The notes beneath the pieces were generated by a model. The model saw nothing but the letters and a program-made list of their open reading frames with translations, made no database searches and had not been told where the DNA came from. A program made the position numbers and the translations under genes. A stretch of DNA of 64,000 bases from Antedon mediterranea (Eukaryota > Echinodermata > Crinoidea > Comatulida > Antedonidae), in NCBI RefSeq assembly GCF_964355755.1, contig NC_092672.1:13140501-13204500 (forward strand), given 5' to 3'. Below, piece by piece: positions 1,879 to 62,952 of this stretch (position 1 is the first letter of the stretch; every line of letters begins with the position of its first letter).

Positions 1879-1945
1879 ATGTTGAACGCTAAAGAGTATC
1901 TGAGTCTGGCAATTCTGATATTTGGTGCGTCAATGACGTCTGCAG
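1879..1945 (+). CDS. Gene A exon 1: start codon and signal peptide
   Basis: Encodes residues 1-22, MLNAKEYLSLAILIFGASMT then SA: a short charged start, a hydrophobic core and small residues at the end, which is a typical secretory signal peptide cleaved near the exon border. Donor GTTAG follows in phase 1. This start is chosen because the same ATG, peptide and donor recur in B and C. Confidence 0.85.
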
Positions 1946-4900
1946 GTTAGTAACCAACTTATTGTAGATAATGTTGTATATCTTGAATTTGTATCTATTT
2001 TATATTTTGAGAAAAATTGTTTATATTCTCTTTCAATTACTGCATATTGTTTCTTTTAGTTTCCACAAAGCAAAATGTATAATTATAGTCTTAAGCGCAG
2101 TAGGTTACTATACTATAACTATAATTATAAATAAAATGGGCACTGCGATACATCTCCACCAACAATTGGAAATTAATTAATGTTAGGCCTACCTTAATCA
2201 ATTTAAACGGAAACTAATATCATACTCCACCTTCTCATATGTACTAATATTTCGTACACTAATAACTTTGCTGTAATGTTTTTAAACTATTTTTAAACAT
2301 TATTTGTATATTTTCTTCCATAATAGTACCTGTAATTGTGTCCTTTAATTCTATTGAAGACTGAAATTATACACGTGTCTGTATCAACAATGCCGTGTCA
2401 CGGTTTATGGGTTTTTATTTGTATTGACTTGGTTTACTTTGATCCAAGTGCTTTTAAATTCAAATTATACACAGTAATAGAGATCTATTATTCCTGGAGT
2501 AAGGTATTATTGAGCACAATGGCAGTATAATAATGTGTTTTGAAGAGGTGACATGATGTTATTGCTTTTTTTGTGATGGGAAGTTTTACTAAAATTTGTA
2601 CCATATTTTGTTTTTAGCCAATACCACAATGGTATCTATACGTAAATAAGATACAATATTATATTTTACAGATGTTTTGGATTTCACAATAGTGGTTAAT
2701 AGTGCCGTGGTTGATGCAAACGATGAGGTTAATTTTGGTGGATACCTACATAAATCAGAAGAATCAACATCAATATTTCTAGGTCAAAATATCCTTACAG
2801 AAACTGATTCTAATGAAAATGAAGTGGAATGGACGGATGGTGATAACCCGCCGATAGTCTTAGATAATTCATTCTTTCCAACTGGAACAAGTTTAGGCAC
2901 AGAAACGACTTCAGAATACCAGGCTTTGATAATGAAAATGCCGAACAGTAGTGGTATTGCAAAAGTAGGATCGTTTTACGGAAAAGCAATGGCTCAAAAC
3001 AAAGAAGAATTTATACCTTTTGTTATTCTAAATTCAAATGGTAGTTTTCTATTTTTGTTTTTGGTTTCATTTTCTATAGACTGATCGTCTGAAATGGTAT
3101 GGGGAAAGGAAAAGTCATCGGCATCAATAACAATACAATTATCAACACTTCTGTATGTCATAGGCCTTATAGTATAAGATCATTTTAAAGACCAAAATAA
3201 TATTCAGTCTTGTGTAAAGTCTATACTTCCATGCTTAAACATTGACCCGACACGATTGACATGATCTTTTTTTTTCTTTACGCCTTCCGTCGGACAATAT
3301 TAACGATGGCGACAGGTACATGAACTCATTTAGACATAAACTGCATACATCGCACATGTGTATTGTTTTTCGTTCTTAATCTCTATTTTCCATTTTTATT
3401 ACTTGTAATGTCTTTCTTCTATTTGTATTGTTGTTACATTATTGTTGTTATGGTATGCGTAATGTAACTGTAACAAAAATAAAACTAAAACATTAACAAC
3501 TTAATATAATTAATATAATAATGAATTTAATTCAACACTGTTTTTCCGCATAGCAACTGTTGTTCCTAAGTATCGATCTTTAACTGCAAGCATCGGTGAT
3601 GATTTGACAGGCTTAATAATGGTAACCAGCTATGGGACAGGTAGTTACAGGTGGCGACATAATGGCGGAAATGTTATAACCTCATACAATGGTAAAAGTA
3701 ACCTTGAATTGACCAATGTTCGTATGGCAGATGCGGGTGTGTATGAGTGTTACTTACATGAAACAGGAAGAGACGGAAGGCATGCCATTATTCAAATAAA
3801 TGTTAAAGGTATGCATGACCTGATTGTTTAGAGTGTAGCATTTTAGTGTTCAACTATACTAACTTGTTGAAGGTTTGGTTTAATAAAAAGTTTAAATCTA
3901 AAAATGTAATGCAACTTATAAATAAGCGACTAATAATTATGGTATTAATATGTTATGTACGAAAATTACGCAATATCTGGAATATACAATATGAAAATAA
4001 CTATAATTAAAACGGAATAAGACAATTTTTAAAATAGCATAAAAACACATTAGGCCTGATACTGATTTTTGTAAAAATCAGCAATTAAGTATTCTGCATG
4101 TCAAAAGCGATTTTAAAGAGAAGGGAATCAAATGGAATTAAAGGAAATGATAAAATAGCATGTAGAAGAATAATTTTTCCTGATTTGACCATTTGACCAA
4201 TAGGAGAACTTTGAAGCCATGTGATAACTTGTGTAATCAATAAACGATAGACGTTTGATTATAATCTGATAAAGCCTGAATGCCTGAAGAAAGACAGAAC
4301 CATAGTTATTATAAGGATTATCTTATATCAAATTTTTCGAATAGGATGTTCGAAAAGGAAGTGGGGAACAGATTGTGATTTAAATTGTCCTGTATGTTAC
4401 AACGGTGGAATATGCGATCACATTACCGGCTTATGTATCTGCGCGGCTGGGTTCGAAGGCGTAGATTGTTCAAAAGGTAATGTTTACACACAATGTTTTA
4501 CATTTCATTTTATTGTAAATTTAAACATAAATCCTCCAATTTGATTTCGTGTAAATAACGTCACTGCTGTCTATCTATTGTACAGTTGACATGGTACAGT
4601 TTTGGACCCTAAATAGACAGTAGCTGCATTTGTAGTTTTGTTGGTATGTGTAATTATAGCTGTACTAGCAGGGAAGATTGAGCAATACTTTAATCTTCCC
4701 TGCTACTGTATGGAAGTTAAATATTATGGTTATGTTTACTTTAATATTAGCCTATATGGGAACCGTTATTTGAAAATCGAATTGTTTGGCTTTAATTATA
4801 TACCATCTATTTACTTTCTGTAAATCGGCTTAGAATATTTAGCAAAAGATAAATAACAGTGAGAAAGACCGTATTTATAATTTTGGATGTATTTCTGTAC

Positions 4901-7900
4901 AAATTGCATGTTTTATTACTCAACTGAGGCTTTGTATTTCAGGTTGTGAATCGTCGAACTGGGGAAGAGAGTGTTCTATAAATTCTCTAACGGAACACAT
5001 TGGAAAGACGTTTTGCCCTCCACATCCACTCAGTTGCTCTTGTTATGCTGGGTACACTGGACATGTATGTGATCAAGGTAATGAGACGAAATTGCTAGAT
5101 ATCGTTATGTTGATTTGTATCTCAAAAATGTATCATTCAAATTGCTATAGTCCTACTTTTTTTTTTTATAGAAAACTGAGTTCTTTTGCATTGCAAATAA
5201 TAGTGTCGCGCTACCAGATCTTGAATTAAAATGAGATAACAATATTATTATTCGTCTATCAAAGTGTATTAAAAACTTAGGTGTAATGTTTGATAGCTCT
5301 TTAAATATGTCCTCTAAAGTAAATGCTTTATGAAAGTCATTGAATTACCAACTCCGTAAGTGGCACATACTTCAATATATTTCTAAGGATGCAAGCCCCA
5401 ATGCCTGTCCCGCCTTGACTACGTTAACTCGCTCTTGCTTGGTGCCCTCGAAGTTGATCCTAAACGATTACAGCGATTGCAGAACAAGACTGGTCGTTGC
5501 GTGTGGACGGGATCAGCATTCGGGTGTGTTATTAAAAGATCTCCATTGGCTTCATATAAAAAAAAAAGAATTTTGTACAGAATTATTGTTTTTGTTTATA
5601 AATGTATTTACTCTGTTGTTCCTTTGTACCTTTTTGATTTAATTACGTTTAACCGTGATCAGCTTTCATTTAATTACTAATGTCGACTTCACTCCTCCAA
5701 TGATCCCACCCGACTTTTCGTTCCACGATCTAATCGGAAAGCTGGTGACGGTGTTTTTTCTGTCACCGCTGAACAGATCTGGAACACGCTACCTGTCGAT
5801 TTGAGAGGAGCGATTTCGGCACTCTTGTCTTCAGTTAAAATAAATAATAAATATAAATAACTTTTAAATTATGCATAGAATGTATACTGGGAATGTATGG
5901 TCCGGACTGCGCATGTGTGTGTCATTGTCCGACGAATGTGTGCGATAGACACAAAGGTTGTGCCGAGGATTCTGTGTGTCATTTGGGTTATGCAGGAAAG
6001 ACATGTCTAGGTGAGTGCAGCATCAGTCAAACGATCGTTACTTTTCTATCTATTCAAATGTATTTATGATTGTTAATTTCAAAACAATTAAACTTGTTTA
6101 ATATTTTACAAATCAGAACACCTCTCCTGTCCACCTGGTATGTTCGGTGAATTTTGTCAATATACTTGTCACTGTGAGAGTAAAAAAACAGACATCATAG
6201 CAGGCTGTGACAAACATACTGGAGAATGTTTAAATGACGTCAGCTGTTCTAGTGGATGGGGTGGGTCTGATTGTCAAATAGGTAAATTAGTTTATATTCA
6301 ATAAATCGTATATGATATTTTTCTTTGTAGTTCGATCATCAATTAAATAAATAAGCAATGCTCATATGCATACATTTTAATATATTATTTACTCACTAAA
6401 TATTAATAGTATAAATAAATTCGATCTGAATTTCATTTTTTTTTTTATACGATCGTCGTTATGTAACACAATATGCTTTAAAACATTCAGACTTTATCAT
6501 TATCAGCTTTGCCAATTCTCAAACGTAACCCAACTACAAGTGTTACAGAAAACAGTATAACTATAAGCTGGGAACCATGGAGGAGTAGTATTGACTACGG
6601 AACCGGACCCGTCATAAAATACCAAGTAATTTATCGGACACCACCGAACTCTGGATTTCCATTTATAGTATGGCGGGAAGTAAATGTGGACGATTTAATG
6701 CGAGTGGACATTGATGATTTAGAACCAAGAACTAACTATGAAATAAGAATTATTTTACATAGGCAGATTGATGGAGAGAATTATACATCAATTGGTTCAA
6801 GTAAAATAGTTGTTACCTCAGGAGAAGGTAAGAAAGATATACTAACTCATTTGCAAGATATATTTTATTACCGTTTTTATACAAGTGATATTACTACGGA
6901 GAGTAACATATTTTGGTTATTTTCAGACAAAATCATGGATTTTACATTTTATTGTGCCACACCACGAGTTGACGTTGATGATAATACGATGTCTACCTTT
7001 ATTGGCGGATATAGTGGCAGTGATCATCAAACAAGTGATATACAAATCGGAAAAATTGTAACTGAAATTGGAGAAGATTTTCTCGGTCGTGAAATAACAT
7101 GGAACGATGGATCCAGGGTAGGAGTGATATTGGGCAATGAAACCATGTTTCCAGTTGGAACTCGTGTCCAAATCGCAACTCCGAAACACTTCAATGCCTT
7201 ACGTGTGTATATTGACTCTGCCAGTGGCGTTAATAAACTGGGAGTATTTTACGCAAAAGCTAATAAATTACAAATGTGTAGTTATATATCTAGCGAAATT
7301 GTGTTAATCGTCTTAAGTAAACATGGTAAGTTTTTGAAAAATCTTTCCACGGTAATGGAATTGAATGATTATGACGTTGGTGGGACACAAGGTGCACATT
7401 AGCGACCATACTATAATTATTTACATATTGTATATAATGATAGGCATATATGAAAGAATGCAAAAGACCCAATGTGTTTTAATGTTTATCTATAGACCGA
7501 CCATTTATTACCATCAATATACCATTGAAAAAAAAGTGTATCCAGTCAAAGCAGTCATCAATTCAATTTTGGTCTTCATCAAATACAGCATGTTGAAGTT
7601 GTAATAATATAATTTAGAATTATAATTATTATTAATAGTTTCTAATACGGAATTTTATAAAATGTGGTTATTGTTTATATTTTACTTTGTTCAGTCATTG
7701 GTTAATGTTAATTATAATGTTGTAGCATCAGTAATGTCTGTTAGAAAAACCTGGACAACCGGTACAGGAGAACGTGTAATGATGAACATGGTTGGTGACA
7801 ACTCGACAGATAAATGGTGGCGCCACAATGGCATTACTTTAAACGAATGGAACAACAGTCTTTTTATCAAAATTGATGTAGTAAGAAAACAAGATGCTGG

Positions 7901-10900
7901 AATATACGAATGCTTACCTACAGAAAATTGGGAGAATGGGAATAAAGGAATTACAAATCTAATTGTCAGAGGTAAAACAATTGTTTACTTTCAATGTTCA
8001 AATGCTAACAGACTTGTAATAAACAATCGATTATTACTTCAAATAAGTGAAATTTTATTTTCAGAGTGTCCTCTTCGTAAATGGGGACCACCTGATTGTT
8101 TACGGAACTGTCCAACTTGTTACAATGGTGGAGCTTGTGATGACGTAACAGGAGCATGTGTCTGTACCGTCGGGTTTCGTGGTATCAATTGTGAAATAGG
8201 TGTGTGAAGTGTTCCTCATTTGTTCATAGCCTATTAGTGTAGACCACTATGTAATTTCGTGTCATTTTTTTGTTAAAAGCAAAATTCCAGCTGATTTAGC
8301 GTTTTTGGGATTTAAAGTAAAATATATAAAAATTATTATTATATTCATCAGTATCTTTAGGATGTAAAGTAATAAAAAAAACATGTTGCAATTTTTTTTT
8401 AAAAAGCTTAAGGTTGTCAAATCCAAGATGGCCGCCAATACGTAAGATATCCAATAAATGTACCATTTTGGACAAAGTAACACCCATTATGAATAATATT
8501 TAGTTACAATTAATGACATATGGGTTTTCTGCTATATAACAATTATTATAAACCTATATTCATCAGTATATCATTTTTTTAAATCGATTACATTTCTTAT
8601 TAAAACGTGACCATGGCCCTGAAGGTTCAGACATTGAATTACCTGGCAATAACGGATTTATTATTTAACACCATATTTTTACAGGATTTCACAATCTATA
8701 TTATAAGTGAGAGAGTTTGTACGTCTGTTTTTTCGTTATGCAAATTTTTGCTACTGCACATAGGCCTAATCTTGCATATTGGGTATCAAAATGACCAGAA
8801 TTGTACCGGGAAAGTTCTAAACTACATTTTAAAGATATATTGTCCCCAAAAACATGAAAAATGAAGATTAGTTAAATCAGACTTTGAATATGTGTGTTTA
8901 GTTTTGTAGTGTTAATAAAGTTAATCACTTCCATAAAAAAAACACAACAAAATATTTTTTCACTTGTAAAATGACAAAGAAAATGGTTAATTCAACCAAA
9001 AATTCATTGGCTGGCAGCAATTTTGACAATTGGCTGGCAGCCAATTTGACAATGTTTGCTTTAAATTACATTTTTTCGGGTAAATACATTTTTTTCCGAT
9101 CCGATTTTTGGTCGAAGTCGATAACTATTATGTTACATTAAAATAGAATATTCAACAAAAATGTTGTTAAGAATTATTTTTTCACGGGGACAATACATCT
9201 TTAACATCATCAGCCATCTAGGATCAAAGTTAAGCTTGGTTTCCACTAGGTCGCAAGGCAAGGACGTAGACGCAACGCAAACCAGTTGACCAATGACAAG
9301 CGACCATCGCTTGTGATTGGTTAAATCCCTTACGTTGCGTTACGTCGTTGTGTTGCGTCTCTAGTGGGAACCAGGCATTAGGGGTCAAAATGTGGTCAAA
9401 ATGGCCCACTTTTCCTCACTTTCAATGTTTGTTCTATTTCAGCACGTAACCATACATATGGTGTATCAAAATGCCCGCAATTGTACCGGGAATTTAATTT
9501 TGCTTAGACCAGAACTGTGTGGTAGGAAATTGTTATGAAGTATTTTAATTAGCCCTGGCGTAATGAAGTATAACGTGATTGAAATTGTACTAGGGAAAGT
9601 TACTACATTTCAATTGCCATGGAAAGAGTTAGGTTTGTTATTGTGGCTAGAATGGTGATAGGAGAAAGGTGGATGCCGCTCCAAAATTTCAGGTCAAAGG
9701 TCATTTTCAAGGTTATAAGGTCAAATATGGTAAAATAGAAGTTTCAGTTGTTTTCAACAACGTATAAGCTAATTAAAAGAAATGTAACCATTATTGGATC
9801 ATTATTGACATATTGCTGTAGATGGTCAAGTTCATCAATTTTTCAACTTACAAGTTTAAAGTCATTTTCAAGGTCATAAGGTCAGATAGAGCACAGGCCT
9901 GTTAATTATCGGTATTAATAATTGAAATAAATATAATTTTCATTGGGCTGATGGTTATAGTGTGGTGTCAAAAAGACCAGAATTGTACTGGGAAGATTTA
10001 AACTTTTTGAGTCACTCCTGGAAGATGTTCAATGGATGGGGAGGATGAGTCCTACAGTATCAAAATAGGCCGAACCTAAATTGGAGTCCTACTGGAATGT
10101 CTTAAATTTTATTTTAAAACGGTCACAGGGGGTTTGAGGGTTCGGAGTAATGGGCAGCATGGGCCCATGCCAATATTCGAACTTTTTCTGGGATGGAAGA
10201 AGGTAAACGCTCTGAGGTGGGTATTTCTTCCAGCACTAATATATAATGGCCATCTGGGTTACGGCAAACGATTGAATTACAACCACACATGCATGCTTTC
10301 GGTCACAACTTCATCTGACTCTTTAGTTTACAGAATACATACACATGTAACAAGTTCCAAACTGACAACTCGGTCAGGGGCTTCCAAACGACCCCATTCA
10401 TTTAGGCCACATACTGATCTCTGCCTGATAGTTGGCTCGTATGTTTAGTTTCTGATGTCTGTATTTACCTTAGGTGAGTTTTTGAAATTTTAAGTATTTC
10501 CCTAAAAGTGGAAATACAGTACTTAAATATTTATTGAGTAAAGTGAAATACTTAATATTTAAGGTTAAATTTATATCACTAATGTTAATGATATATGGTC
10601 ACTGAATCTAGATGGAGGTAGCATTTTAAGACCCTCCAAAGAGTAGTCTTTTATTATACAGTTATCTGCTCAAGCCGATGAGTGTGGCCTAAAACACATA
10701 CGGAAGTACAGATTAGTACATTGAGACTATCCTTTCAATCGTGTCACTGCTTTTATCCACCCCTTTTCAATGTAATGATCAAATACAACAAAATGACGAA
10801 ATATCCAGGTAACTTGCATAAATACTTGCATAGTCACCAAATGTTTTAAGGCCATGTTTACTGAATCCTATAGTGCATGACCATCATGTTTTTAACTTTT

Positions 10901-13900
10901 CTTCTGGAACATCTGTGGGTATTTCAACGCCATCCATCAAGGTATGTGAAGTCATAATTATTTGGTTAAAGATATAAAAATTGGGCTATGATCATACTCC
11001 AATGGTTGATCAGCAGATTTTCTGTCAGTTTTTTTGTTTTTATATACTTTATCGAAACAGTTGCCTTATAGAAATCCGATGCTTTCTCAGTGGTTTTTTT
11101 TTCTTTCAATAAGTTGTTAATTTAAATATAAGATCTTCTTTATCATCTGTCAGGTCGAAAGAATATTGTGTATTATGTGTGATTCGTGATCAGTCTGACC
11201 ATGTCATGCAGAATCAATATTTGGTACTTGGTTCTGATTAGTTTAGATAGGTAAACTTGTTTATCCTTTTAACCTCATTCTACAACAAATTTAATCGGTT
11301 TTTAAATGTGTTAGTGGTTTCAGAAATGACGACTTCGGTTGGCAAACTATTCGAATATATGATTACTCATTGTGAAAAACTGGATCTCCATCAGTCCTTT
11401 GTGAAATTTATTTCAGCTTAGATTGCATCTCATTTGAAGGAAGTCTTCCTTGGCTACACCTTCGAAACCTTTTGAAAAATTTCAATCAAGTCACAACGAA
11501 TTCGTCTGTCATACAGGGTTGTTAGGTCAAGAAACTTTAAACGATTTTCATATGAATAAGAATGGATAGCTGGAATTTGATTTGTCGCATGACATTGTCC
11601 TCTTTCAAGTGCGTTTATGTCTTTTTGGAGAATGGATTCCATACCTGGACACAGTACGTAACGTAATGTTTGTAAATAACGTTAAAACCGTATCCATGTA
11701 TATAAAGGACCTCTTAATTACTTAAGGAGTTTTATATCTGTTATCACCGTCAGCCAAGATAGCATAGATGCGAAGGCCTCAAGAAGGAGAACCCATTTAC
11801 CACTCCTTCCAACCTTGATAAAGTCCAATAGTTAGGGTTTGTGAAAACAAAGAATCGATACCCAGGATCCTTTTTCGAGATTTCTGGAAACAACAAATTT
11901 CAACAAAAACTTGTATCATTGAAAGAATGAAAAAAATGTTTATATAATTACATTACAGGGGGTCTCTGACCCCAACAAACACATCTCGACATTAGGTAAT
12001 ATAGGGGGTCCCTGTTTTCGAATTAAAAAAAAAAATTTCTAAATATTATTACATTATTAATATTAATAATATTATAGTAAAAAAACAATCTTTTGGCACA
12101 TATGGCGTTTCATACATATAACACCGACAAAAATCAAAATGATGACTGGTGGACAACACAAAAAAGAAAACAGACTGGTGACAGCCTATTAACAAGGCCA
12201 TATAGATGGCTGCAGTCGCGTGCTCATTAGTGTTTACCGACCGACCAACCGACCGAACAACCTACCAACTGACCGAAATTGCTGAACATGTTTAAAAATG
12301 TTGAAATGTTCAAAAACATTTATATTTTTTTAATCTACACGTGCGTAGCCTGTCACTTTTGACGTGTTCGTATAACGTAATTTCAAGTTGAAAAGTAAGT
12401 CAAGAAAACAGAAATCGGGCAAAAAGAGTGCGTAATAACATTTAACCAACCGACCAACCGACCGACATAGTGAGGTGTAGAGTCGCGTTGCACGCGACTA
12501 AAAGATGTGTGTACTTTACAGAAGTATGTAAAAACAACATTTTGAGAAAATGACACTTTTATATTTAATTTCTAATGTATTTATGTGTAAAATAAAATGT
12601 TTATCTCATAATTACTATAATATAAAGTTTTAAATCAGTTTTTTGGATAGATCTGACGATGTAGATGATTTTCCGTGAATAAAAAAAAATCCTATATTTT
12701 GACCTTTTTTGACCTCTTGACCAGATAAACTGACCATAAAACCCAAAACTGAAGATGGCATCCACCTCTATCGTTTTTTCACCCCACAAAGGATACATTC
12801 AACATGGTTGCCTGCTATTAACAAAAAATTCCACACAAACTTTTTATAGAGGACTTTTGTGTATATGGCCTCTCTACTATCAGGTTGAATTGAAATTTGT
12901 CCTGTGAAGAATTTGTTTTTAAAAAAGAGTGTGGGATCTTATTGAAGAGGGGTGGTATAGGGAGACACTGGGGTCTGTGAAGGCTTTAAACTAATCTAGA
13001 AACCCGCCCTGGGGCGGATATAATTGCTAGTAAGGTATAAATACACTTGTTTTATATTGTGGTAAATACAAGTTTCACTTTTATGGAAAGAAATGAGATC
13101 TATAATTTAGATTTAGAAGTAATTGTTGCTGAATATTTGATACCAACGTAAGTTGTTCCATACTTTTTGCAACTCCAACTTTGAACGATTAGGTAATTAG
13201 TAGGGGTATTATATATCTATTATATAGACAACTTTAGACAGCCTTATATTTAGACAATCCTATGATAAGTGACTATTTTAGAACATTGTGTACAAACAAC
13301 AACCATTATTTAAAGAATTTAATTTTAGTGGCGGCCATTTTGAAATCCAAGATGGTCGACAGATTATCGCTTTACATAGTTATGATTGTATAATGTGTAA
13401 CACCATCAAAACGGACTTGTTCCACATTCATAATTTGTGTTATTGGTGATATTCTAGTTTTAAATAGGGTTATTTAAATGTTGGCGGCCATCTTGAATTT
13501 GGTCCTTAAATTTCTTTATAAAAAATGGCAACACATTTTTTTCCATTCCTTATATTATCAAGATATGAAATCAAAGTCAAAGTTTGCTTTTAACAAAAAT
13601 ATACACGACATTCATATAAACGACATACCAGCCTACACTATATGTGCAATTGTATACCGTATAACATATATTTAATGTAACAGAGAAACAAAATATGAAC
13701 ACATATCAAGCCAAGTTTCCAATAATCAAAGTTTGGTATTTAAGACCTGGAAAGACATAATTCATCTGATACTTCAACGAGTTTTATCTAATACATGTTT
13801 TCAGATTTAATTCAAACATGCTCAATAATAATTTCGACACTAAAACAAATTGTTGCACATTAACTGTCGCATGATTTCATCAATTCAAAGCACAGTTCTT

Positions 13901-19900: not shown

Positions 19901-21011
19901 TGGAAGCTGTGATAATGGATGTACTTCTGAATGGACAGGGACCGACTGCAGTATTGGTATGTTTTACACAAGCATAGGTGTAACGTTAGTTTTAGGCAAA
20001 ATAATTCGCCATCTAAGGTATATTTTAGTTAAATAGGTAATATTTAAAGGTTTGCATGGCAAAAATTTTTTTATTAAAGTTAGATTTGAGGTAAATCATA
20101 TGATTTCAAAAGATGTATGATTGAGTATTCCTACTTTAATGTGTAATTTTATCTTTAAAGGGTATCTGTAAGGTTTCATTGATTGAATATTATATTATCG
20201 ATTAGCTTAATCATATCAACAAAGTCTTGGAAATTTTAAATCAATGTGATAGAGGCAGATGAAAACTATGCTTACCTACTACAGTAAAATCACAATTACC
20301 TTTCCGTGTAAAGGTATAGTCATTATATCAAAAATTAATTGTACAAAGATAATAATTAAAGTACATCATTTGTGTGTAAATTAATACAGCTTTGCCGTAT
20401 ATATTGAGAAGATTGAACGTGACTGATATACGAGCAACTAGTATAGATGTGTCTCACTTATGGGTATTTGGCGAAGACTTTGGAACTGGACCCGCTACTT
20501 CTTATGTATTGTGTTACCGTAGCACCACCGATTGGCTTTGTCAGAAAACAATACAAAGTCTGTCAACAATCAATGGCTTAATACCAAACACAACACTTGA
20601 AATAAAGGTTCAAGTTTTCAAAAGGATTGGTTATGATGACATTGGAGGTCCTATGAAAACTGTTACAAGAATCAGAACTATTTGTCTTGGTAAGTTCTAA
20701 ACTTGATCAATTAGTTTAATTTGTCTAGTTTTGATTATAGTTTAAAAATGAAAATAAACTCTATACAACTCGCAACAAAACGTATTCTCAGCATTATAAT
20801 CTCTTTTCCTTTTTATTTATTTTTTTACAAAATTCAGTTCTCACCCTTTTGGTGACGACAATATTGTCATTAAAACTGAGTGTGGTAGAATAATAATTGA
20901 CAATTTTATATACAATACTGTTTTATTCATAATTTTATCTTTTTGTATTCATTTTTATTGTAAAAACCTGTACAACCAATAATGGAAGTATAATTATATG
21001 TACAATATATA

Positions 21012-21069
<58 letters not shown>

Positions 21070-22625: not shown

Positions 22626-22990
22626 CACAATTTGTAGGCGTATTACACATGAAAAATCTTTGAATGCATTCTGCTTATGCAGTAAATATGTCATAAATAT
22701 GGCTACATCGTTTTCTATAAAATATATAATTTCTTGAATCGCAGTGACCAAGTTACGATTAACGCGTTTTTATTAAATATTAAAATGATTTGAGTGTTTT
22801 TTATCTGTTTTTATTTAATTTATAATAATAGGTAAAATAAAATATATGCTAATTCTGCCAAGTGAAATACTGTTTATGAATGATTTGTTTTCTCTTTTGT
22901 GGGGATTTTACATTTCATTTTTATCATTATTATATTGAAAACAATTGTTATAATGGCAAACATGAAAAACAATGCACATCTAAATTTAAC
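22626..22990 (+). terminator. Gene A 3' UTR region with candidate polyadenylation signals
   Basis: ATTAAA at 22772-22777 and AATAAA at 22836-22841 lie 150-215 bases after the stop codon. The second is kept in C (63163-63168) but is AACCAA in B. The cleavage site cannot be seen from sequence. Confidence 0.45.
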
Positions 22991-22994
22991 TTAA

Positions 22995-23120
22995 ATATGT
23001 ATTGTCCCTTGAAACACAAAAAAATGAAGGTCAAAATATTCTAAATTTAAATTGGCCATATCAAAGTAATATTAAAGTTATTCACTTTAAGTCGAAAATT
23101 CGAGCCAAAAACAACAAGTT
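22995..23120. mobile_element. Left part of a TTAA MITE, cut by a LINE insertion
   Basis: The end ATATGTATTGTCCC follows a TTAA (22991-22994). The same element is complete after gene C (63314-63839). Here it is interrupted by a LINE at 23121 and its right end is missing. Confidence 0.7.
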
Positions 23121-25755: not shown

Positions 25756-25787
<32 letters not shown>

Positions 25788-47124: not shown

Positions 47125-47314
47125 ATTGGAGCGTAATTTTGTTGATATGAACTCCTTTTGTATTTTCCTATTGTCTGATTTACTCCCTGGAGTGAGGGTG
47201 ACTATGTAAAAAAAGTTACAAAGCCACACGGAAATGAACGTATAATAATGAATTCAATTTCAAAGATAAACTAGTTACACTTAGTTAATCGTCACATACT
47301 TACTGCTTACTACC
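47125..47314 (+). promoter_or_regulatory. Conserved 5' flank / putative core promoter of gene C
   Basis: Same layout as before A and B: palindrome at 47180-47195 and TATAATAA at 47241-47248, 74 bases before the ATG. Confidence 0.5.
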
Positions 47315-50300: not shown

Positions 50301-53300
50301 TTTAAATTGTCCTGTATGTTACAACGGTGGAATATGCGATCACATTACCGGCTTGTGTATCTGCGCGGCTGGGTTCGAAGGTGTTGATTGTTCAAAAGGT
50401 AAGGTTTACATGCAATTTGTTTTACATTTTTATGTAAAGTACATAAATGATTTTGTCCAAATAACGTCACTGATTGCTGTCTATCTATTGTACAGTTGAC
50501 ATGGTACCGTTTTGGACCCCATAAACAGTAACTACATGTGTTGTGTGGTATGTGTAGGCCTACTGTGTAGGCTTTATGCCTACTAGCAGTGGTACTTGTA
50601 TGGAAGCTAAATATTATGGTTATCATTCCTTTGATATTTGCCATATGAGAACCATTATCATTTTAATATTTAATCATTTTGCTTTGTATTTATATACCAT
50701 CTATTTACTTTCAACAAATCGGCTTAGAACAGTTATCAAGGAATAAATGAACAGTGATAAACACCGTTTTTAGAAGTTTGGATGTATTTCTGTATAAGTC
50801 GCATGTTTTATTACTCAACCGAGGCTTTGTATTTCAGGTTGTGAATCGTCGAACTGGGGAAGAGAGTGTTCTATAAATTCTGTAACAGGACACATTGGAA
50901 AGACGTTTTGCCCTCCACGTCCACTCAGTTGCTCTTGTTATGCTGGGTACACTGGACATGGATGTGATCAAGGTAGTGAAACGTATTAGATATCGTTATG
51001 TCGTGAGGTAATTTCCCGATTGATCGTAATCAAAACGGTACACTGGGTTTGGTCTACTAGCGTTCCTGCTCCCAACCAGTACATCCATTCATAGAAGCCT
51101 TAATGAAGTAAGCCTACCTGGTGGTGGCCATAGAACGGTCCCGAGATAACGACTATACTTCGGCTTTAGTCGATAGAAGATTGAATAAATTGTTAGAGAT
51201 AGAGTATACGATGTTATGATTATGTGTAGATATGTGATTTGTTCTTTTTATTCAAATGATGTTATGTATTTAATAAATTTGTTATAACAATTAATTAAAT
51301 TATCATAGATTTCATATTATTATTATTATTAATAAATTTTTGATATATTATTATTATTATAATATTAATAAAAAGATATTTGTTAAGTTTAAATTTTAAA
51401 ATATAGATATAAGGAAGAAAAACAAAGAGATTATGGAGCGGCTGTACCAGAATATACAACACTAAGTATTGTAAAGTTAATATATTAAAAATTTAGGCGA
51501 TCTTGTCAAAGGTCAAGCGCCTTAAGCCTGCCGCGTTTCGATATTCAATATTGAACTTGAATAGGTTTGTATCTCAAAAATGTATAATTCAAACTACTGT
51601 AGTAAATAAACCAAAGCGTATAAACTGACACTCTTGTCTTAAGTTGAAATAAATAATAAATATAAATAACTTTTTAATTATGCATAGAATGTATACTGGG
51701 AATGTATGGTCCGGACTGCGCATGTGTTTGTCATTGTCCGACGAATGTGTGCGATAGGCATAAAGGATGTGCTGAAGATTCTGAGTGTTATCCGGGATAT
51801 GCAGGAAAGACATGTCTAGGTGAGTGTAACATCAGTCAACGATCGTTACTTTTTTATCTATACAAATGCATTTATGATTGTTAATATCAAACAATTAAAC
51901 TTGTTTAATATTTTACAAATCAGAACACCTCTCCTGTCCACCTGGTATGTTCGGTGAATTTTGTCAATATACTTGTCATTGTGAGAGTAAGAAAACAGAC
52001 ACAATAGGAGGCTGTGACAAACATACTGGAGAATGTTTAAATGACGTCAGCTGTGCTAGTGGATGGGCTGGGTCTGATTGTCAAATAGGTGAATTAGTTT
52101 ATATTCAATAAATCGTATAAGATTTTTTTATTTGTAGTTCGATCATCAATTAAAACAAATAAGCAATGCTCATATGCATACATTTTAATATATTATTTAC
52201 TCACTAAATATTAATAGTATAAATAAATTTGATCCGAATTTCATTTTTTTTCTTACACGATTTTATCGTTGAACAGTCGTCGTTATGTAACACAATATTC
52301 TTTAAAACATTCAGACTTTATCATTATCAGCTTTGCCAATTCTCAAACGTAACCCAACTACAAGTGTTACCGAAAACAGTATAACTATAAGCTGGGAACC
52401 ATGGACGAGTAGTATTGACTACGGAACCGGACCCGTCACAAAATACCAAGTAATCTATCGGACACCACCGAACTCTGGATTTCCTTTTATATTATGGCGG
52501 GAAGTAAATGTGGACGATTTAATGCGAGTGGACATTGATGATTTAGAACCAAGAACTAACTATGAAATAAGAATTATTTTACATAGGCAGATTGATGGAG
52601 AGAATTATACATCAATTGGTTCAAGTAAAATAGTTGTTACCTCAGGAGAAGGTAAGAAAGATATACTAACTCATTTGCAAGATATATTTTATTACCGTTT
52701 TTATACAAGTGATATTATAGTCAAGTCAAGTCAAGTATAATCTTTATTCGTTCCCACAAGGAGAAAATTACATTGCTCGTCTTCAAATACATCATAATTA
52801 CAATATATAAAATAACATGACAATACAACAATACCAATATTAAAAACTCACAACAAGAACATATTATTACATATTATTTCATGGTGCTCATCTGGATGAA
52901 TGTCGCTGATGTCTCCTGATACCTGTGGGCAGAAAGGAGAAAAGATATCGGTTTGTCTCCGCAGCCGCGGATCGCAATCTTCCACTGCGAGCACTCCTGA
53001 GACAGCCTAAATCGGAATTCACAGGATGACTTTCATCCCTCAACACCATCCCAAAAAGCCTGTCCAGGTTCTCGCAATAAACTTAATCCACCGACTGCTG
53101 ACACAAACCAGACATCCTCTCAACCCTTCTTACCACACGATCAATTCTACCCTTATCTCCCTCTGTAACATTTCCACCCCACCCTGCAATACAATATTTC
53201 CAAACCCCAACAATAATAGACTGATAGAATGTAATCAAAATATTATTATTTACACTGAACTTGTTTTATTACTACGGAGAGTAACATATTTTGGTTATTT

Positions 53301-56300
53301 TCAGACAAAATCATGGATTTTACATTTTATTGTGCCACACCACGAGTTGACGTTGATGATAATACGATGTCTACGTTTATTGGCGGATATAGTGGCAGTG
53401 ATCATCAAACAAGTGATATACAAATCGGAAAAATTGTAACTGAAATTGGCGAAGATTTTCTCGGTCGTGAAATAACATGGAACGATGGATCCAAAGTAGG
53501 AGTGATATTGGGCAATGAAACCATGTTTCCAGCTGGAACTCGTGTCCACCTCGCAACTCCGGAAAACTCCAATGCATTGCGTGTGTTTATTGACTCTGCC
53601 AGTGGCGTTAATAAACTGGGAGCATTTTACGCAAAAGCTAATAAATTACGAATGTGTAGTTATATATCTAGCGAAATTGTGTCAATCATCTTAAGTAAAC
53701 ATGGTAAGTTTTTGAAAAATCTTTCCACGGTAAGAGAATTGAATGATTATGACGTTGGTGGGACACGAGGTGCACATTAGCGACCATACTATAATTATTT
53801 ACATATTGTATATAATGATAGGCCTATATGAAAGAATGCAAAAGACCAACTGTGTTTTAATGTTTATCTATAGACCGACCATTTATTACCATCAATATAC
53901 CATTGAAAAAAAAGTGTATCCAGTCAAAACAATCATCAATTCAATTTTGGTCTTCATCAAATACAGCATGTTGAAGTTGTAATAATATAATTTAGAATTA
54001 TAATAAATTATTATTAATAGTTTCTAATACGGAATTTTATAGAATATGTTTATTGTTTAGATTTTACTTTGTCATACTGTTCAGTCATTAGTTAATGTTA
54101 ATTATAATCTTGTAGCATCAGTAACGTCTGTTAGAAGAACTTGGACAACAGGTACAGGAGAACGTGTAATGATGAACATGGTTGCTGACAACTCGACAGA
54201 TAAATGGTGGCGCCACAACGGCATTACTTTAAACGAATGGAACAACAGTCTTTTTATCAAATTAGATGTAGTAAGAAAACAAGATGCTGGAATATACGAA
54301 TGCTTACCTACAGAAAATTGGGAGAATGGGAATAAAGGAATTACAAACTTAATTGTCAGAGGTAAAATAATTGTTTACTTAAAATGTTCAAATGCTAACA
54401 GGCTTGTAATAAACAATCGATTATTACTTCAAAGAAGTGACATTTTATTTTCAGAGTGTCCTCTTCGTAAATGGGGACCACCTCATTGTTTACGGAACTG
54501 TCCAACTTGTTACAATGGCGGAGTTTGTGATGACGTAACAGGATCATGTGTCTGTACCGTTGGGTTTCGTGGTGTCAATTGTGAAATAGGTGTGTGTGTT
54601 ACCTTCTTTGTTCCTATAACTTATGTACAATTGTATACCGTATAAGATACAAAATATAAACACATATCAAGCCAAGTTTCCAATAATCAAATTTTTGTAT
54701 TTAAGACCCGGCAAGACATAGTTCAACTGATACTTCAACGGGTTTTATATTAATTCATGTTTTCAGATTGATCTCAAACCTGCTCAATAATAATTTCGAC
54801 ACTAAAACAAATTGTTGCACATTAACAATTCAATCAATTCACAGCACAGTTCTTGATCATTTGTGTACATGCCAAGTTGAACTTACGTTCTGTACATCCT
54901 AGGTCTACATTTAAATAATTACTAACAATAATTCATAAGTATCTACCTTATTATAGGCAAACCATGTACGGTACAATATTACGTAATACGATATTGTAAT
55001 TTCAAGAAAACCATATCCTGAAATATTATTTATAACTACATCATGAGATAGTTTTCTTTCTTTCCTAAAGGTGAATACTACTGTACATAACAAAGTATTT
55101 AAAAAAAAACCTCAAGAGAATGTAACATATATAACATAACAAGTATCAGTTAAGGTAGTAGTAAAATATTATGAAAAAAACTTATTTTTCATTACTTTTA
55201 TTTGAAATATAGCATGTGGTTCGGATACGTTTGGAAGACATTGCAGTATGTTTTGTTCAAGTAAGGATATCGAATCGTGTATGGGAAAGGTGATATGTCC
55301 GCCGTCACCACAGGGATGTTCGTGCACCGATGGATATACTGGTCCAGACTGTCTTGACGGTACGATACATCTAATATTTATTTTTACATAATATCAATTA
55401 TATTCAGGGCTTGGTTTCTGAGTTTATTTAAAATAAGTATTTCATTTTATTATGTCTTGGCCTCCATAAAAAAGTCATAAGTATATTTATATACTGTACT
55501 CACTAATTATATTATATATATATATATATACCAGTTGGTCGAAGTGACCATTGTTGTATTTTGTTGGAACCATCAACCAATCTTGCAGATGATAAATTAC
55601 AAGCCGGCACATTTGCTGTTTCGTCCACTAAGAGACTCCTCGATCAGATCATTTGGACAATGGATGACTTTGCATGATTGGAATCATCGTAGTGCTTATG
55701 AAAACTCTTCAGATTTTTTTGGAAATTTTTAATCAGGAGCTCAACAGTGCTTTTGAAGAGCATTTTCCTCACATTTTCACTAACAAGAGATTGAATGACA
55801 AGCCCTGGTTTACAACTAAATTAATAAAATTAATTTTGAAACGCCATGTGGCTTACCGAAATGGACAGGATATCCAGTAGAAAATCTTACGTTGTAATGT
55901 ACAGCAGGAAGTCAAACTAGCGAAGGCTTCGTTCTATGAAAAGTCTATTGCTCCCTTGAAAGGGAACAAACCTGGAAAATGGCACCGCAGTGTCCAGAAG
56001 CTCTGTAATATGAGAAAGAAATCAAGTCGTATTCCTGGCTCTGATGTTGACCCTATAAATACCGTTGAATGCATCAATAGCCATTTTGCACTTAATCAGC
56101 TTCCGGCTTTGAATATCAACAAGCTACCAGCCTTCCTCCCAGCAAGTGAACCACCAGTTATACATGAATGGGAAGTTCGTAAGGCTTTGAATGAATTGAA
56201 CTGTAAAAAATCAAGCCACCCATCAGACTTACCAATTAAAATAATTAAGGAATTTGCTATTGAACTTGCTAATTCGCTAACTAAATTATTTAATACCTGT

Positions 56301-59300
56301 CTCAATGAGGGAAACTCTCCACGTCAGTGGATAACTGCTACAATAGTTCCAGTTCCAAAACAAAACAAGATCCGCTCCTTTGATGATCTTCGTCCAATAT
56401 CATTGACGCCGGTCTTTGCTAAGATTTTTTAGGCATTTATTGCCAAAAGGATTATTGACGATATTGATAATAAATTAGACACTAAACAGTATGGTAATAC
56501 TAAAGGTTCATCTAATATACATTATCTTGTGGATATGTTAAATCATATTTATATGAAAGTCTTGACAAGCCCAAACAATCAGTTGAACTCTGTACAATTG
56601 ATTTTACTAATTTCTACTTCTGTGTGAAAGAACTCATACTACCAAACTTGGCACGCACATTTCTTTCACCAAATCAATCTCTTGTGGAGTACCACAGGGA
56701 ACCAAACTGGGACCCGTATTATTTTTGGTTCTAGTAAATGATGCTGCCATTGAAAGTTGTACACGTTGGAAATTTGTGGATGACCTTACTCTAGGGGAAG
56801 TAACCAAATGTGGTGCTTCCTCTAACTTAGAGAGTGTCCTTAATAGTGTCAGTGAATGGTGTGCATCTAATGATGTTCTACCTAAAGCAGCTAAGTGCCA
56901 AGTAATTGAATTTAATTTTTTAAAGCAACGGCAGCTTAATTTAGTATACACTATTGATAACTTTAATCTTCCAATAGTTAATAAGTTAAAATTGCTTGGT
57001 GTAATAATCCAAAATGACCTCAAATGGGGTTCAAATGTTAATAATATAACATCAAGAGCCTCACTTAGGCTATTCTCATTATGTATCCTGAAAAGGTCTA
57101 ATGCACCAGTCAGTAACCTGGTTACAGTATTTACATCATATATCAGACCTGTGCTGGAATATGCCTGCCAGGTTTGGCATTCATCAACAACTGTTCAGCA
57201 ATCTAATTTAATGAAAAAAATTAAAAAACGGGCATTGCGCATAATTTTAAGCCAACATTACGTTAGCTATGAATTAGCCTTAGAACACATAGGTTTGCTT
57301 TCTCTAAAGTCCCGTAGAGAACAGATTCTTCTAAAGTTTGGCAAGAGTCTTTTAGAATCTACCAAATTTAGAAATATGTTACCAGCATATCTGATAGGCA
57401 TTCAAGATCGTTAAGGATTAATACTATTTTAAATAGCAAATAACCCATTGGAACACTTTAAATTTAAGCATAAAACGTGATAGGTTTTAAGTAAATCAAA
57501 CATAATTATATCATATACCACAACAAAATGTATACATTTATTTGTCTGAAAAACTGTTTCAGCTATCATTTTCTGTAGGCCCTAAAACTTTTTAAAAATG
57601 TAATTTTTTAGCCTTTTATTGTTTTTGGCTGTCTCTACAAATCTATACAGGCGACTTATGTCTGATTTTGCTTGCATGTGCCACATTTAAGAGAACCTAA
57701 AGAAGAGAAAAAAAGATAATAATTGTTTTCTATTAATGTTTTATATTACGTTTATATGCTTCTATTCGTGCGCAATTAATTATCGTGAGATTCTGAAAGC
57801 GTTAGTGGTTGGTTAGTGTGTAAAAAAAAACCAAAACAACCTTTAAATTTGTATAATGATTACAAATAGTATATTGATTAAGTTAACAAGGGTATAAATT
57901 TGATTATGGACATTTTGTAGAATGTTCTTCTGGAATGTATGGCTCTGATTGTCAGCAGAGGTGCCAGTGTGACGTCAGTCATTGTGATCGAAAGTTTGGA
58001 TGTAATGGAATATGTTACGAAGGATATACTGGACCTCAATGCCAAGGTAACCAAACTTAATCGAAGTAGTTAAATATTTCAACATAATAATCACCTATCT
58101 GTCGAGTACGATATCCTATTCAGAAACACACTGTATAATGCCCTCCGATTGACTAGAATGATAATGATGACGGTGCTTGAATAACATTAAAAACATATAA
58201 AGCTAACAACTAGGCTTATACTCAAATTCCTAACTGGTGCATCATGCGTAATCTTTGCTTACCATTTTTAAATATTTTAAGTGTATTTGGAGTCCGTTGC
58301 AGCTAAAATGGTTTTATTGTTATTCACACATAATCCTAAATTTATCGTTTTCGATTTTTTTAGATTTTCATATAATATATTATATTTCCGAAAAGCCGAT
58401 TATTATTGTTTCACACGTCTTTTTGGTATAATTGTAAGTAATTCTTTGTATGCGTCTGTGAACCTCAACACCAAGTAATTGTAATCAGAGTGGTCTCAAC
58501 TAACCCCTGTACATCTACTTCTCGGACAACTGCCACCCGAACAAACCACCCTCCATACCCATTAGGACAATGTTTTTTTAAATGTGGCCTCACTAAACTC
58601 ACTTCTATTTAGTTATAATAGAGCCATGTTCTCAAGTTTTCTTGAAATTCCGAAAGGAAAATTCAATTTGTTCTGGTTTGGACCAGTCTAACCTTTGACC
58701 ACAAATGTTGAGTGTTTCTATTTAAATTCGTGTAATTCTGTACCAAATCGCGTTTCAGCTTTGATATTGTACAATTTTCATTGTCAAAATATTTGTGAAA
58801 CTGTGTTTTTAAAAATATGTCATCAAGATCCATTTTTGATAAAAATAAATTCGGGAACAATTGTAATTTTGAATAAAAAAATTCAAAAAGTACAATTTTG
58901 ACCAAACCACTTTACCATATTATTATTTGCATGTAAACTTCATGTTTTGTATCATTAGATTGATAATTAGAAATAGCTCCTATAGGGTACTTCATTTGAT
59001 AATGTTACATCAGTCAGTCCAGATGTTTATAGATTTAAAAAAAAAGTACTAGGTACTAAAATCAGATTAAAAAAAAAGGTTTAAAAAGTATTGTAACTTG
59101 TTTTGGGTGACCAATATTTTTCATAGGTTTCCTGGAAAAATAGGACGACACACGAGTTTCCTTTCTAAAGGTCCCTTCGTGTCGAGTGCCACCAAACGGC
59201 GCTCATTCGTATGTTCGCAACGACATGGATTGACCAGCCCATCGGGGTAACCTCTACTTTTCCGAAAGCACATACGAGGGTTTACACTGGACCTTCAGTT

Positions 59301-62300
59301 TTAAGTCATTATCCGCGAAGGCTTGTACTACCATAACAATGGTCAATGAGTGACTTGATTACCTAAAAAATTAAAATAAAAAATACAGTAGACCAATAAT
59401 GATGATGAACATTTTAAGTGGGAAAAGGTTGTCATAGAGAGTGTCTATAGTAGATTTTGGGGTGGGATATTTCTTTAGTCAAACCACAAAATATTAAATG
59501 ATATTGAGTTTCTGATTTAAAGGGTAGGGCATTGGACAAGGAAGTTGCTTTAAATTAAAAAAATGTTACAATATGAAGAAAGAGAACAATGAAGTAACTC
59601 TTTGAAGCACTGAATGGGATCTTTGTGGGTCCTGGTAAGATGGAATCTAGGGTAGTCCGGCGCGGAACCGGTGCAGCCCTAATAGCCACACTGCCTATTT
59701 GTTGCACCATCACCCGGACAACTTAAGAGTGCTGTTACAGTAGGCCTATATATTTTGTAATGTTATGTAAGAAATAGGCTACAGTTGTTTTCAAGGAGTG
59801 GTTAGTATTTTCTATGCCTAATATTGGACCAATTGCAAAAGGTTTATGGATACTTTTTAACCGTAATTTGTTATTGCAAAATGCGAACAAATTAAATGAA
59901 ATAATTAATTAGCTTCGTACAGTTATCCAGGGGTGTATATGTTGTCCTGGAAGGTAGTTGTCCAAAAGGTTAATTGTACTTGGAGTAAATATCCTACGGG
60001 TGATTGTTCAGGCGGTAGTTGTCCGAGGAGGATAGTTGTCAAGGTTGTAGTTGTCCTGGTGGTGATTGTCAAAATAAAAGGTAGTTGTCCGAGAAAGAGC
60101 TTCTTCCAAGAACGATCTACCACTGAAATGTAAATTTAAATGTTATTTTAATTTCAGAATTGGTGCATGATCGTACTTGTTCCAATGGTCACTTTGGTGC
60201 TTTGTGTAACTATCCTTGTCACTGCCAACACTCATCAAATTGTCATCGTAATGGAAGCTGTGATAATGGATGTACTTCTGAATGGACAGGGACCGACTGC
60301 AGTATTGGTATGTTTTACACAAGCATAGGTGTAACGTTAGTTTTAGGCAAAATAATTCGCCATCTAAGGTATATTTTAGTTAAATAGGTAATATTTAAAG
60401 GTTTGCATGGCAAAATTTTTTTTATTAAAGTTAGATTTGAGGTAAATCATATGATTTCAAAAGATGCATGATTGAGTATTCCTACTTTAATGTGTAATTT
60501 TATCTTTAAAGGGTATCTGTAAGGTTTCATTGATTGAATATTATATAATCGATTAGCTTAATCATATCAACAAAGTCTTGGAAATTTTAAATCAATGTGA
60601 TAGATGCAGATGAAGACTATGCTTACTTACTACAGTAAAATCACAATTACCTTTCCGTGTAAAGGTATAGTCATTATATCAAAAATTAATTGTACAAAGA
60701 TAATAATTAAAGTACATCAATTCTGTGTAAATTAATACAGCTTTGCCGTATATATTGAGAAGATTGAACGTGACTGATATACGAGCAACTAGTATAGATG
60801 TGTCTCACTTATGGGTATTTGGCGAAGACTTTGGAACTGGACCCGCTACTGCTTATGTATTGTGTTACCGTAGCACCACCGATTGGTTTTGTCAGAAAAC
60901 AATACAAAGTCTGTCAACAATCAATGACTTAATACCAAACACAACAATTGAAGTAAAGGTTCAAGTTTTCAAAAGGATTGGTTATGATGACATTGGAGGT
61001 CCTATGATAACTGTTACAAGAATCAGAACTATTTGTCTTGGTAAGTTCTAAACTTGATCAATTAGTTTAATTTGTCTAGTTTTGTTTATAGTTTAAAAAT
61101 AAAAATAAACTCTATACAACTCGCAACAAAACGTATTCTCAGCATTATAATCTCTTTTCCTTTTTATTTTTTTTTTACAAAATTCAGTTCTCACCCTTTT
61201 GGTGACGACAATATTGTCATTAAAACTGAGTGTGGTAGAATAATAATTGACAATTTTATATACAATACTGTTTTATTTTTAATTTTATCTTTTTGTATTC
61301 ATTTTATTGTAAAAACCTGTACAACCAATAATGGAAGTATAATTACATGTACAATATATAATATATATATATATATATATTATATTGGTTGAACATAACA
61401 TTTACGCATAATATGACAGGGAGTATATCTTAACTGTAATGTTAGTACAATTTAATACAAAATCAAATATAGACTAGAATATAATAGAGCACTGGAAAGG
61501 TAAGATTTACTAAGATGAATTATCAATTACAGAACCTCTTGATTCGCCAAAGGTAGAAACATTGTCAACCATCAAGGACACCATTGTAGTAAAATGGAAG
61601 GTGGGCATTTTCAATGTATTTTTTAATTACCTTATTGTTGTTGTAGCTTAATAATACATCCATTTTTTGAGCTAATGTATTGTTTTATCTGCCTTAAAAT
61701 TTGCCAGTCACAAGTATATAGACAGTATCGAATTTGATCGATAAACTTTTAAGTATTAATAATAATGTAAACGACATTTTACTGTAGTTAGGTTTACTTT
61801 TTCGAAGGCTGTAGATTTCAATCCTACGCGGTTGCAGTGTGACAGTTTATTACATTACGACGTTGGTTACCAAACTGGGATTAACGACGCTTGGGAAACA
61901 TTTCAAGTTAATTATGATCAGACCGAAGCAACTATTAACTTTTTAGCTTATGACATGGTATATCAAGTTAGAGTTAGGGCAGTGAATACAGCAGGAATTA
62001 CAGGACCATGGAGTGAAATATGGACAATTAAAATTCCAGAAAATAAAACAGGTCAGGTTTCGTTCTTTATAATTGACAATAACTCAGACTCTATAGACTC
62101 AGCATTAGTGCGCTTACCGGTAAAAAATCAAAATGCCAGAAAATTTCAAACAATAGTAAACGATATTTTGAAATAGTTGTGTTTGTTACTCTTGTTTCGA
62201 TACTTTTTTCCATCTTCTAACTCTCATCTACTAGGCCTAAGTAAACGAATTGCTTATACATTGATTTACACTCATCTACTAAAACGAATTATTTATACAT

Positions 62301-62952
62301 TTGCTTTCATCTACTAAATTATTTAATTGTTTATACATTTTCTTATTTAGGATCAAAGATAGCTATATATGTGCTCTCATCAGTTGTCGCATTGTTAGTT
62401 ATTTCTACCGTTGTGGTTCTTGACAAATTGAGGTATGTGTCGAATGACCCTGGTTAGACATATATTGCAATTAAGTGTATTCATTTGAATAATCAACTGA
62501 AACTTACAACATTTCATCTCTCATCAGTAACGCCATAACATTATTTAAACCTTTATCATTGAGTAATAATTATGCTTACTAATTCCTATTTCAGACGAAT
62601 GAAACGCCAGGTTAACGGATATAAAAAGGATTATGGGAACGTTCAGATTAACACAATATCAAAACCGTCACAAAATTACCAAGACGACAGTTACACTTCA
62701 CTGCAAAAAGAAGCGCGTTGTTTGGCAGAATCCCCTAACAATACCTACGAACAAGAAACCCCAAAAGACGAGATATTTTATTTGAACGTTACCAATTTAT
62801 CCCAAAATAAACAAACAGAAGACGCCATAGCCGATACTGATACAACGTATGATGAAATCTGTGTTGGCGGCTTAGAGAAGGAAAGAGGAACTGATGCTCG
62901 AAAAAAACCTCCGGTGCCTAAGAAACCAACAATTACGAATGACAAAGAATAA
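47315..62952 (+). CDS. Gene C: intact Tie-like kinase-less receptor, mosaic of B-like and A-like halves
   Basis: Exons: 47315-47381, 48571-48939, 49456-49710, 50267-50398, 50838-50972, 51688-51819, 51924-52088, 52331-52651, 53305-53703, 54116-54361, 54455-54589, 55213-55359, 57921-58046, 60158-60307, 60741-61040, 61533-61600, 61808-62051, 62351-62432, 62595-62952. Every exon has the length of its gene A counterpart, giving 1276 residues with the same domain order, an intact membrane helix (VVVLDKLR) and tail. Exons 1-6 and their introns track gene B (the intron 1 MITE, the intron 5 166-bp repeat, an exon 2 protein identical to B). From late exon 7 onward they track gene A (FN3a with WREVNVDDL and HRQIDGENY, the intron 13 block and minisatellite). 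No disabling change is seen. Confidence 0.85.
47759..48063. mobile_element. TTAA MITE (305 bp) in gene C intron 1
   Basis: Same insertion as 27465-27769 in gene B, TTAA at 47755-47758 and 48064-48067. Gene A has the empty site. Confidence 0.85.
51001..51168. repeat. 166-bp structured repeat, copy 3
   Basis: The intron 5 counterpart of 30762-30927, 168 bases here because of small indels. Same sharp ends. Confidence 0.7.
52718..53266 (-). mobile_element. 5'-truncated LINE 3' end in gene C intron 8
   Basis: A five-base target duplication TATTA (52713-52717 and 53267-53271) is confirmed by the empty site in gene A. The plus-strand left end is a (TCAAG)n tail. Minus-strand translation gives WKYCIAGWGGNV, DRVVRRVERMSGLCQQ and TNRYLFSFLPTGIRRH, the C-terminal end of a CR1-like reverse transcriptase. 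Confidence 0.8.
55508..55530. repeat. (TA)n run beside the LINE in gene C intron 12
   Basis: Pure TA run directly before the LINE-derived sequence; it may mark the insertion site. Confidence 0.7.
55535..57414 (+). mobile_element. LINE reverse transcriptase remnant in gene C intron 12
   Basis: Broken plus-strand frames give, in order, NDKPWFTTKLIKLI, KPGKWHRSVQKLCNM, ALNELNCKKSSHPSDLP, DDLRPISLTPVFAKIF, a CGVPQGTKLGPVLF motif (near 56687), the catalytic FVDDL (near 56779), KLLGVIIQNDLKW, and LEYACQVWHSS with a C-terminal thumb region. Stops and frameshifts interrupt it at about 55878 and 56432 and again near 56600. The endonuclease domain is missing. Confidence 0.85.
58047..60157. other. Gene C intron 13, counterpart of gene A intron 13
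   Basis: Near-collinear with 17768-19806, including the GC-richer block (about 59130-59310) and the GTAGTTGTCC minisatellite (about 59930-60100). No coding signal. Confidence 0.65.
61353..61385. repeat. (TA)n microsatellite in gene C intron 15
   Basis: Homologous to the longer run in gene A (21003-21066). Confidence 0.85.

Follow-up and report, generated by a model that had tools for sequence, protein, structure and literature searches.

The Tie receptors are regarded as a small family of blood-vessel kinases. A 64-kb stretch of C3 of the crinoid Antedon mediterranea, analyzed over its full length and referred to below as the window, raises the question of what a Tie-type ectodomain does in receptors that carry no kinase. 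A sequence-only reading of the window had proposed a tandem array of three Tie-like receptor genes, each encoding an Ig-Ig-EGFs-FN3 ectodomain, a membrane helix, and a short terminal exon with its own stop, and had regarded the array as a branch of Tie devoid of kinase.

Gene models of the array

Gene models were built from stop-to-stop frames and from the DNA compared across the three copies, after which the splice sites were fixed. The window holds genes A (1879-22625), B (27025-44863), and C (47315-62952), all on the plus strand, which are part of a tandem array of five copies (A to E) on C3. The three genes comprise 19 exons each, as proposed, with GT-AG at every internal exon border and consistent phases, and the limits given previously (1879-62952) were exact. 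Genes A and C are intact and encode the 1276-residue protein that had been deduced, ending at one terminal stop; on splicing, gene A gives one open frame to that single stop. Beyond the window, gene D (C3:13205917-13225600) is intact and encodes 1275 residues, and gene E (C3:13226900-13241630) is decayed, lacking D1 through EGF3 as well as part of its tail.

Gene A (plus strand) illustrates the organization of the copies, as assigned by Pfam and the exon map. Exon 1 (1879-1945) contains the start codon and the signal peptide and has a counterpart in B, C, D, and E. Module 1 (2672-6827) consists of a domain designated D1 (2672-3040), an Ig domain (3554-3808), EGF1 to EGF4 (4345-4476, 4943-5077, 5879-6010, and 6117-6281), and FN3 (6507-6827). 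Module 2 (6927-20689) consists of D1b (6927-7325), an Ig-like exon (7726-7971), EGF1b to EGF4b (8065-8199, 14253-14399, 17642-17767, and 19807-19956), and FN3b (20390-20689). A membrane-proximal FN3 matching the fn3 family (21213-21725) is encoded by two exons (21213-21280 and 21482-21725), and is followed by the transmembrane exon (22024-22105; MYVLSSVVALLVIFTVVVLNKLR) and the tail exon, which contains the stop (22268-22625). The corresponding last two exons of gene C, also on the plus strand, are located at 62351-62432 (transmembrane) and 62595-62952 (tail). All introns of gene A are in phase 1, except for phase 0 within the last FN3 and phase 2 before the tail. Paralogues are 83-98% identical across most exons with dN/dS mostly below 1, far beyond chance. 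The gene models show the predicted products to be single-pass cell-surface receptors without an enzyme.

The ectodomain is a doubled Tie-like module

The ectodomain consists of two D1-Ig-EGFx4-FN3 modules followed by one FN3 split over two exons. Exons of the two modules pair one to one by similarity, D1 and D1b being 31% identical. The two modules are separated by an intron of just 99 bp in A and 114 bp in B, a shortness that speaks for one gene rather than two. Above the cut-off, Pfam recognized fn3 in three stretches and one Ig domain (Ig_3/V-set). Among solved structures, the best match was TIE2 (4k0v, E = 3.7e-37), spanning the second Ig-like exon to EGF3b, far ahead of any non-Tie family (contactin-3, E = 3.3e-8; SCARF1, E = 1.6e-5). 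A Tie-type EGF block was thereby recovered, over a stretch from Ig to EGF3.

The likeness to vertebrate TIE1 and TIE2 (TEK) and to sea urchin SpTie1/2 resides in the Ig-EGF-EGF-EGF core with matching cysteines (CxxxKWGPxC..C.NGG.C in EGF1; CLPDP.GCSC in EGF2), the FN3 domains, and the single membrane helix. In contrast to these receptors, the array genes have no kinase, a doubled module, no Ig between the EGFs and FN3, and a tandem rather than single-copy arrangement. Tie receptors have three EGFs between Ig2 and Ig3, and three are present in TIE2 and in the Tie kinase gene of the same genome, whereas both modules of the array have four EGF exons and then FN3. D1 could not be recognized as Ig1. 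It contains no cysteine in the module 1 copies of A to C, gave no match in Pfam, and yielded no hhalign alignment to the Ig1 of TIE2 (probability 0.3); its AlphaFold model was too poor for a fold search (pLDDT of 40). The previously proposed Ig-Ig-EGFs-FN3 composition therefore holds for the Tie-type EGFs, one Ig, and FN3 but not for the doubling of the module, and its Ig-Ig part is half supported.

Absence of enzymatic exons and motifs of the tail

No tyrosine-kinase exon was detected by tBLASTn (E of at most 0.1) in the 64-kb window or in the 40 kb downstream, apart from a meaningless 15-residue match, using a panel of queries comprising TIE2, one Tie kinase of the same genome, and seven other kinase frames of that genome. 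The same panel recovered most of the kinase exons at three control Tie-kinase loci, so that the claimed lack of kinase exons in the spacers stands with positive controls. Exons for protein tyrosine phosphatases (PTP), searched for with PTP exons of the same genome, were likewise absent from the window and from the 40 kb downstream.

The tail comprises about 119 residues, has its own stop, and is predicted to be cytoplasmic. Its exon occurs in this array only, according to a search of the whole 354-Mb genome, and comparison of the tail with the Tie-kinase loci and the other Tie-like clusters sampled gave matches at chance level only. The tail of gene A contains two YxN motifs, one ITIM-type motif (IFYLNV), one ITSM-type motif (TTYDEI), and one PxxPxK motif (PPVPKK). 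IFYLNV and TTYDEI, located 23 residues apart, are found in A to D (patterns [SIVL]xYxx[IVL] and TxYxx[VI] in an enzyme-free tail). The first YxN is altered in D (Y to S), leaving one, and PPVPKK is replaced by PLVPKK in B. The tail is open in A to D with dN/dS of 0.13-0.65.

An ITIM and an ITSM occurred together in 1% of composition shuffles, and an ITIM alone in 17%. The rarity of the pair is at most suggestive of a docking tail, and the fact that such motifs are short and individually common counts against a signaling role. In vertebrate ITIM/ITSM receptors such as PD-1, the tail likewise lacks an enzyme and carries one motif of each type, whereas the ectodomain is unrelated to that of the array. 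The adaptor-docking tails of the sequence-only reading thus correspond to a motif-rich tail in A, C, and D, where docking of SH2 and SH3 proteins may be expected from the motifs, but not to gene B, which is predicted to be tail-less.

Gene B and the state of the array

The transmembrane exon of gene B (44269-44343, plus strand) is 7 bp shorter than its counterparts and ends in GTTCTTTGAG, compared to GTTCTTAACAAATTGAG in A and GTTCTTGACAAATTGAG in C and D. The deletion creates an in-frame TGA ahead of the donor site, immediately after the helix and following ...STVVVL. The tail exon (44506-44863, plus strand) is still open and about 96% identical but beyond reach of the frame. Not every gene of the array therefore encodes a tail: the proposal of a helix followed by a tail with a conserved stop applies to A and C (and to D beyond the window) but not to B. 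According to the 50-nucleotide rule, a stop adjoining the last exon junction need not trigger mRNA degradation. As the stop of gene B adjoins this junction, its mRNA need not be degraded, and a tail-less receptor could be produced. The deletion could also be an assembly error.

Among A to D, module 1 gave dS values of 0.04-0.07, and most comparisons of module 2 gave 0.15-0.20. The EGF2b exons (14253-14399, 37664-37810, and 55213-55359 in the window; C3:13220434-13220580 in D) fall into two classes, A/C and B/D, with dS of about 0.5 between them in genes that are otherwise near-identical. Introns are also at least 90% alike among copies across long stretches. This mosaic looks like the outcome of tandem duplication with gene conversion at the ends. 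Since dN/dS among A to D was mostly 0.2-0.65, the few small comparisons above 1 resting on very few changes, the genes are under moderate constraint, without clear positive selection. LINE-like reverse-transcriptase frames are present between A and B (24180-25064, minus strand; RVT_1, E = 1.4e-12) and in an intron of gene C (56611-57411, plus strand; RVT_1, E = 3.1e-7).

Kinase and phosphatase genes with the same type of ectodomain

Tie-type kinase exons were found at three loci of C6 (4.27, 15.10, and 27.48 Mb). The gene at C6:4.27, with Tie-type EGF1 to EGF3 upstream, is an instance of the kinase-bearing Tie that was to be looked for in the same genome: its kinase, joined by hand, matched TIE2 (E = 1.2e-122) ahead of one EGFR construct (2e-80) and FGFR1 (4e-73) in the PDB. 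At C6:15.10, an EGF1 exon lies 24 kb upstream of the Tie kinase exons. At C6:27.48, no ectodomain or EGF exon was found in the 10 kb upstream. The latter gene (C6:27482500-27489000, minus strand) displays altered residues (GLLPLRWMAIES) and a kinase insert without TDPxYA.

A Tie-type EGF1 query (CxxxKWxPPDC..CxxCYNGGxCD) matched at least 99 exons at E of at most 1e-5, including those of the C3 array. These exons represent at least about 90-95 loci, most of which belong to tandem clusters (C3, C4, C5, C6, and C8). This EGF type is shared by about 20 clusters or single loci, the array among them. Between one EGF1 exon and the next, a PTP exon follows in at least 29 cases, a lower bound that makes the number of enzyme-free loci an upper bound; a Tie kinase follows in two cases, and neither enzyme follows in the C3 array. 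Receptor PTPs (RPTPs) and short-tail forms are mixed in clusters at C5:7.65-8.08, 12.02-12.14, and 25.20-25.33 Mb and at C6:26.05-26.39, 30.41-30.52, and 7.17-7.24 Mb. At least three loci of the C6:30.4-30.5 cluster have tyrosine-phosphatase exons. The completeness of the PTP domain was checked in one gene, C6:30.51 (C6:30509001-30519000, minus strand), whose exons, joined by hand, matched Y_phosphatase (E = 1.7e-64), with RPTP sigma and alpha as best PDB matches. The signature HCSDGVGRTG spans an intron, and WVD replaces the WPD loop, which may alter the activity of the enzyme; a divergent RPTP from sea urchin has likewise been reported to have WVD (PMC5336234).

A post-membrane exon common to genes of C5, C7, and C1 exists in two states. 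The long state (nine matches) has an open frame of 110-259 residues with a PTP exon about 2 kb further on in eight cases and 6.9 kb in the ninth. The short state (13 matches, two or three of which are fragments) has an open frame of at most 95 residues that ends in a stop, and PTP exons are lacking within 14 kb. About a dozen Tie-like loci end in short tyrosine-motif tails, and the short C7 form sits inside the C5 PTP clade (support of 99.2/98). The two states of a shared exon indicate that enzyme-free receptors arose beside PTP receptors with the same ectodomain. The short-tail receptors of C5 and C7 resemble the array in having a Tie-like ectodomain, a transmembrane segment, and a short tail with YxN and ITIM-like motifs and no enzyme, but their tail is unrelated, the one locus read has a single module, and they are much closer to the C5 PTP genes. 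Another Tie-like cluster, at C3:27.625-27.667 Mb, has paired EGF1 exons and D1-like exons and possibly consists of double-module genes too.

Origin of the array and mode of action of its products

The best non-array matches of D1b (35-39% identity), FN3b (42-45%), and FN3c (33-38%) all belong to the C6:30.41-30.52 Mb cluster. The RPTPs at C6:30.4-30.5 and on C5 have the ectodomain type in common with the array, which differs from them by its doubled module, its own tail, and the lack of a PTP domain. These comparisons point to phosphatase receptors with Tie-like ectodomains and their neighbors, rather than Tie kinases, as the closest kin. The array is best read as one branch of a superfamily with Tie-like ectodomains, marked by a double module and the lack of an enzyme.

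The sequence-only reading held instead that a true Tie receptor was duplicated locally and lost its kinase exons. TIE2 is indeed the best solved-structure match of the ectodomain, genuine Tie kinases exist in the genome, the C6:4.27 kinase being far closer to TIE2 than to FGFR1, and descent from Tie may be envisaged since the deepest branches of a tree based on concatenated EGF1-4 and FN3b had no support. Three domains nevertheless place the nearest relatives in a cluster containing PTP exons, so a Tie that lost its kinase is not the best reading. The four EGFs per module, the identity of about 45% to the Tie EGFs of the genome, no closer than to those of PTP-bearing genes, and the lack of a convincing tail match in the Tie kinase loci further argue against this origin, which we consider unlikely. 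What was borne out is that kinase-less receptors with a Tie-type ectodomain and a motif-rich tail have expanded locally in an echinoderm that has kinase-bearing Tie genes as well, as judged from the TIE2 match, the absence of kinase exons, and the C6:4.27 kinase.

We favor, with a probability of roughly 0.6, the explanation that the array encodes double-module receptors with a docking tail, derived from an enzyme-bearing Tie-like receptor. The latter probably lost or replaced its cytoplasmic part, as the short-tail receptors of the C5 clusters appear to have done, although the lack of a detectable relative of the tail in the clusters sampled counts against truncation as its source. The ectodomain would then have doubled and the locus would subsequently have been duplicated in tandem. 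Clustering of the receptors by a ligand or by cell contact would lead to phosphorylation of the tail by another tyrosine kinase, of the Src family or one of the Tie kinases of the genome. The phosphorylated tail would recruit SH2 proteins, of the Grb2 type at YxN and of the SHP/SAP or Src type at IFYLNV and TTYDEI, and PPVPKK would recruit an SH3 protein. The receptors might also compete or cooperate with relatives that bear an enzyme and may bind the same ligands. The product of gene B would be a tail-less decoy, unless the gene is newly dead.

Alternatively, the proteins could be non-signaling ligand traps or adhesion molecules with incidental tail motifs. The loss of the tail in gene B, whose ectodomain stays open, speaks for such a function, and the motifs are individually near chance. 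We nonetheless regard this function as doubtful because the tail is open in A to D, all motifs are kept, save for the first YxN of D and a single proline in the PPVPKK of B, and the short-tail relatives of C5 and C7 retain YxN and ITIM-like motifs. A largely decaying array, made of recent copies under loss, would account for the internal stop of B and the missing parts of E, but is improbable in view of the complete frames and perfect splice sites of A, C, and D and of dN/dS mostly below 1. Least probable of all, some transcripts might be spliced to a distant enzymatic exon, or the tail exon might be an alternative end, as could be suggested by the homologous exon of the C5 clusters, which exists in a short and a long form. 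The 40 kb downstream gave no kinase or PTP match, the nearest PTP exon of C3 among the matches listed (at 14.10 Mb) is separated from the array by about 0.9 Mb, and the terminal exon with its stop is retained in A to D.

Possible roles

In an invertebrate, some 90 loci with Tie-type ectodomains on kinase, phosphatase, and enzyme-free tails are a natural experiment on output change and a candidate recognition system in crinoids, a class in which immunity is little studied. One ectodomain type with three outputs (kinase, phosphatase, and docking tail) might tentatively be seen as a system of paired activating and inhibitory receptors for immune or self/non-self recognition, the array being its double-module docking branch, although we would not bet on it. 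Ligand capture and tuning of a true Tie, which the sequence-only reading had also put forward, would be further candidate roles. An immune role would be plausible, given the parallel with expanded families of paired receptors and the expression of the sea urchin orthologue SpTie1/2 in coelomocytes and the axial organ (Stevens et al., 2010, as cited in PMC13409769 and PMC12113024), which makes the immune link open to testing. In the open literature, we found no report of Tie expansions, Tie-ectodomain phosphatases, or crinoid immune receptors. A crinoid nonapeptide, CFWRTCPVG, is also encoded in the genome, with GKR after it and a neurophysin exon about 9 kb away; CFWRTCPVG is the sequence given for Antedon mediterranea crinotocin (PMC9793003).
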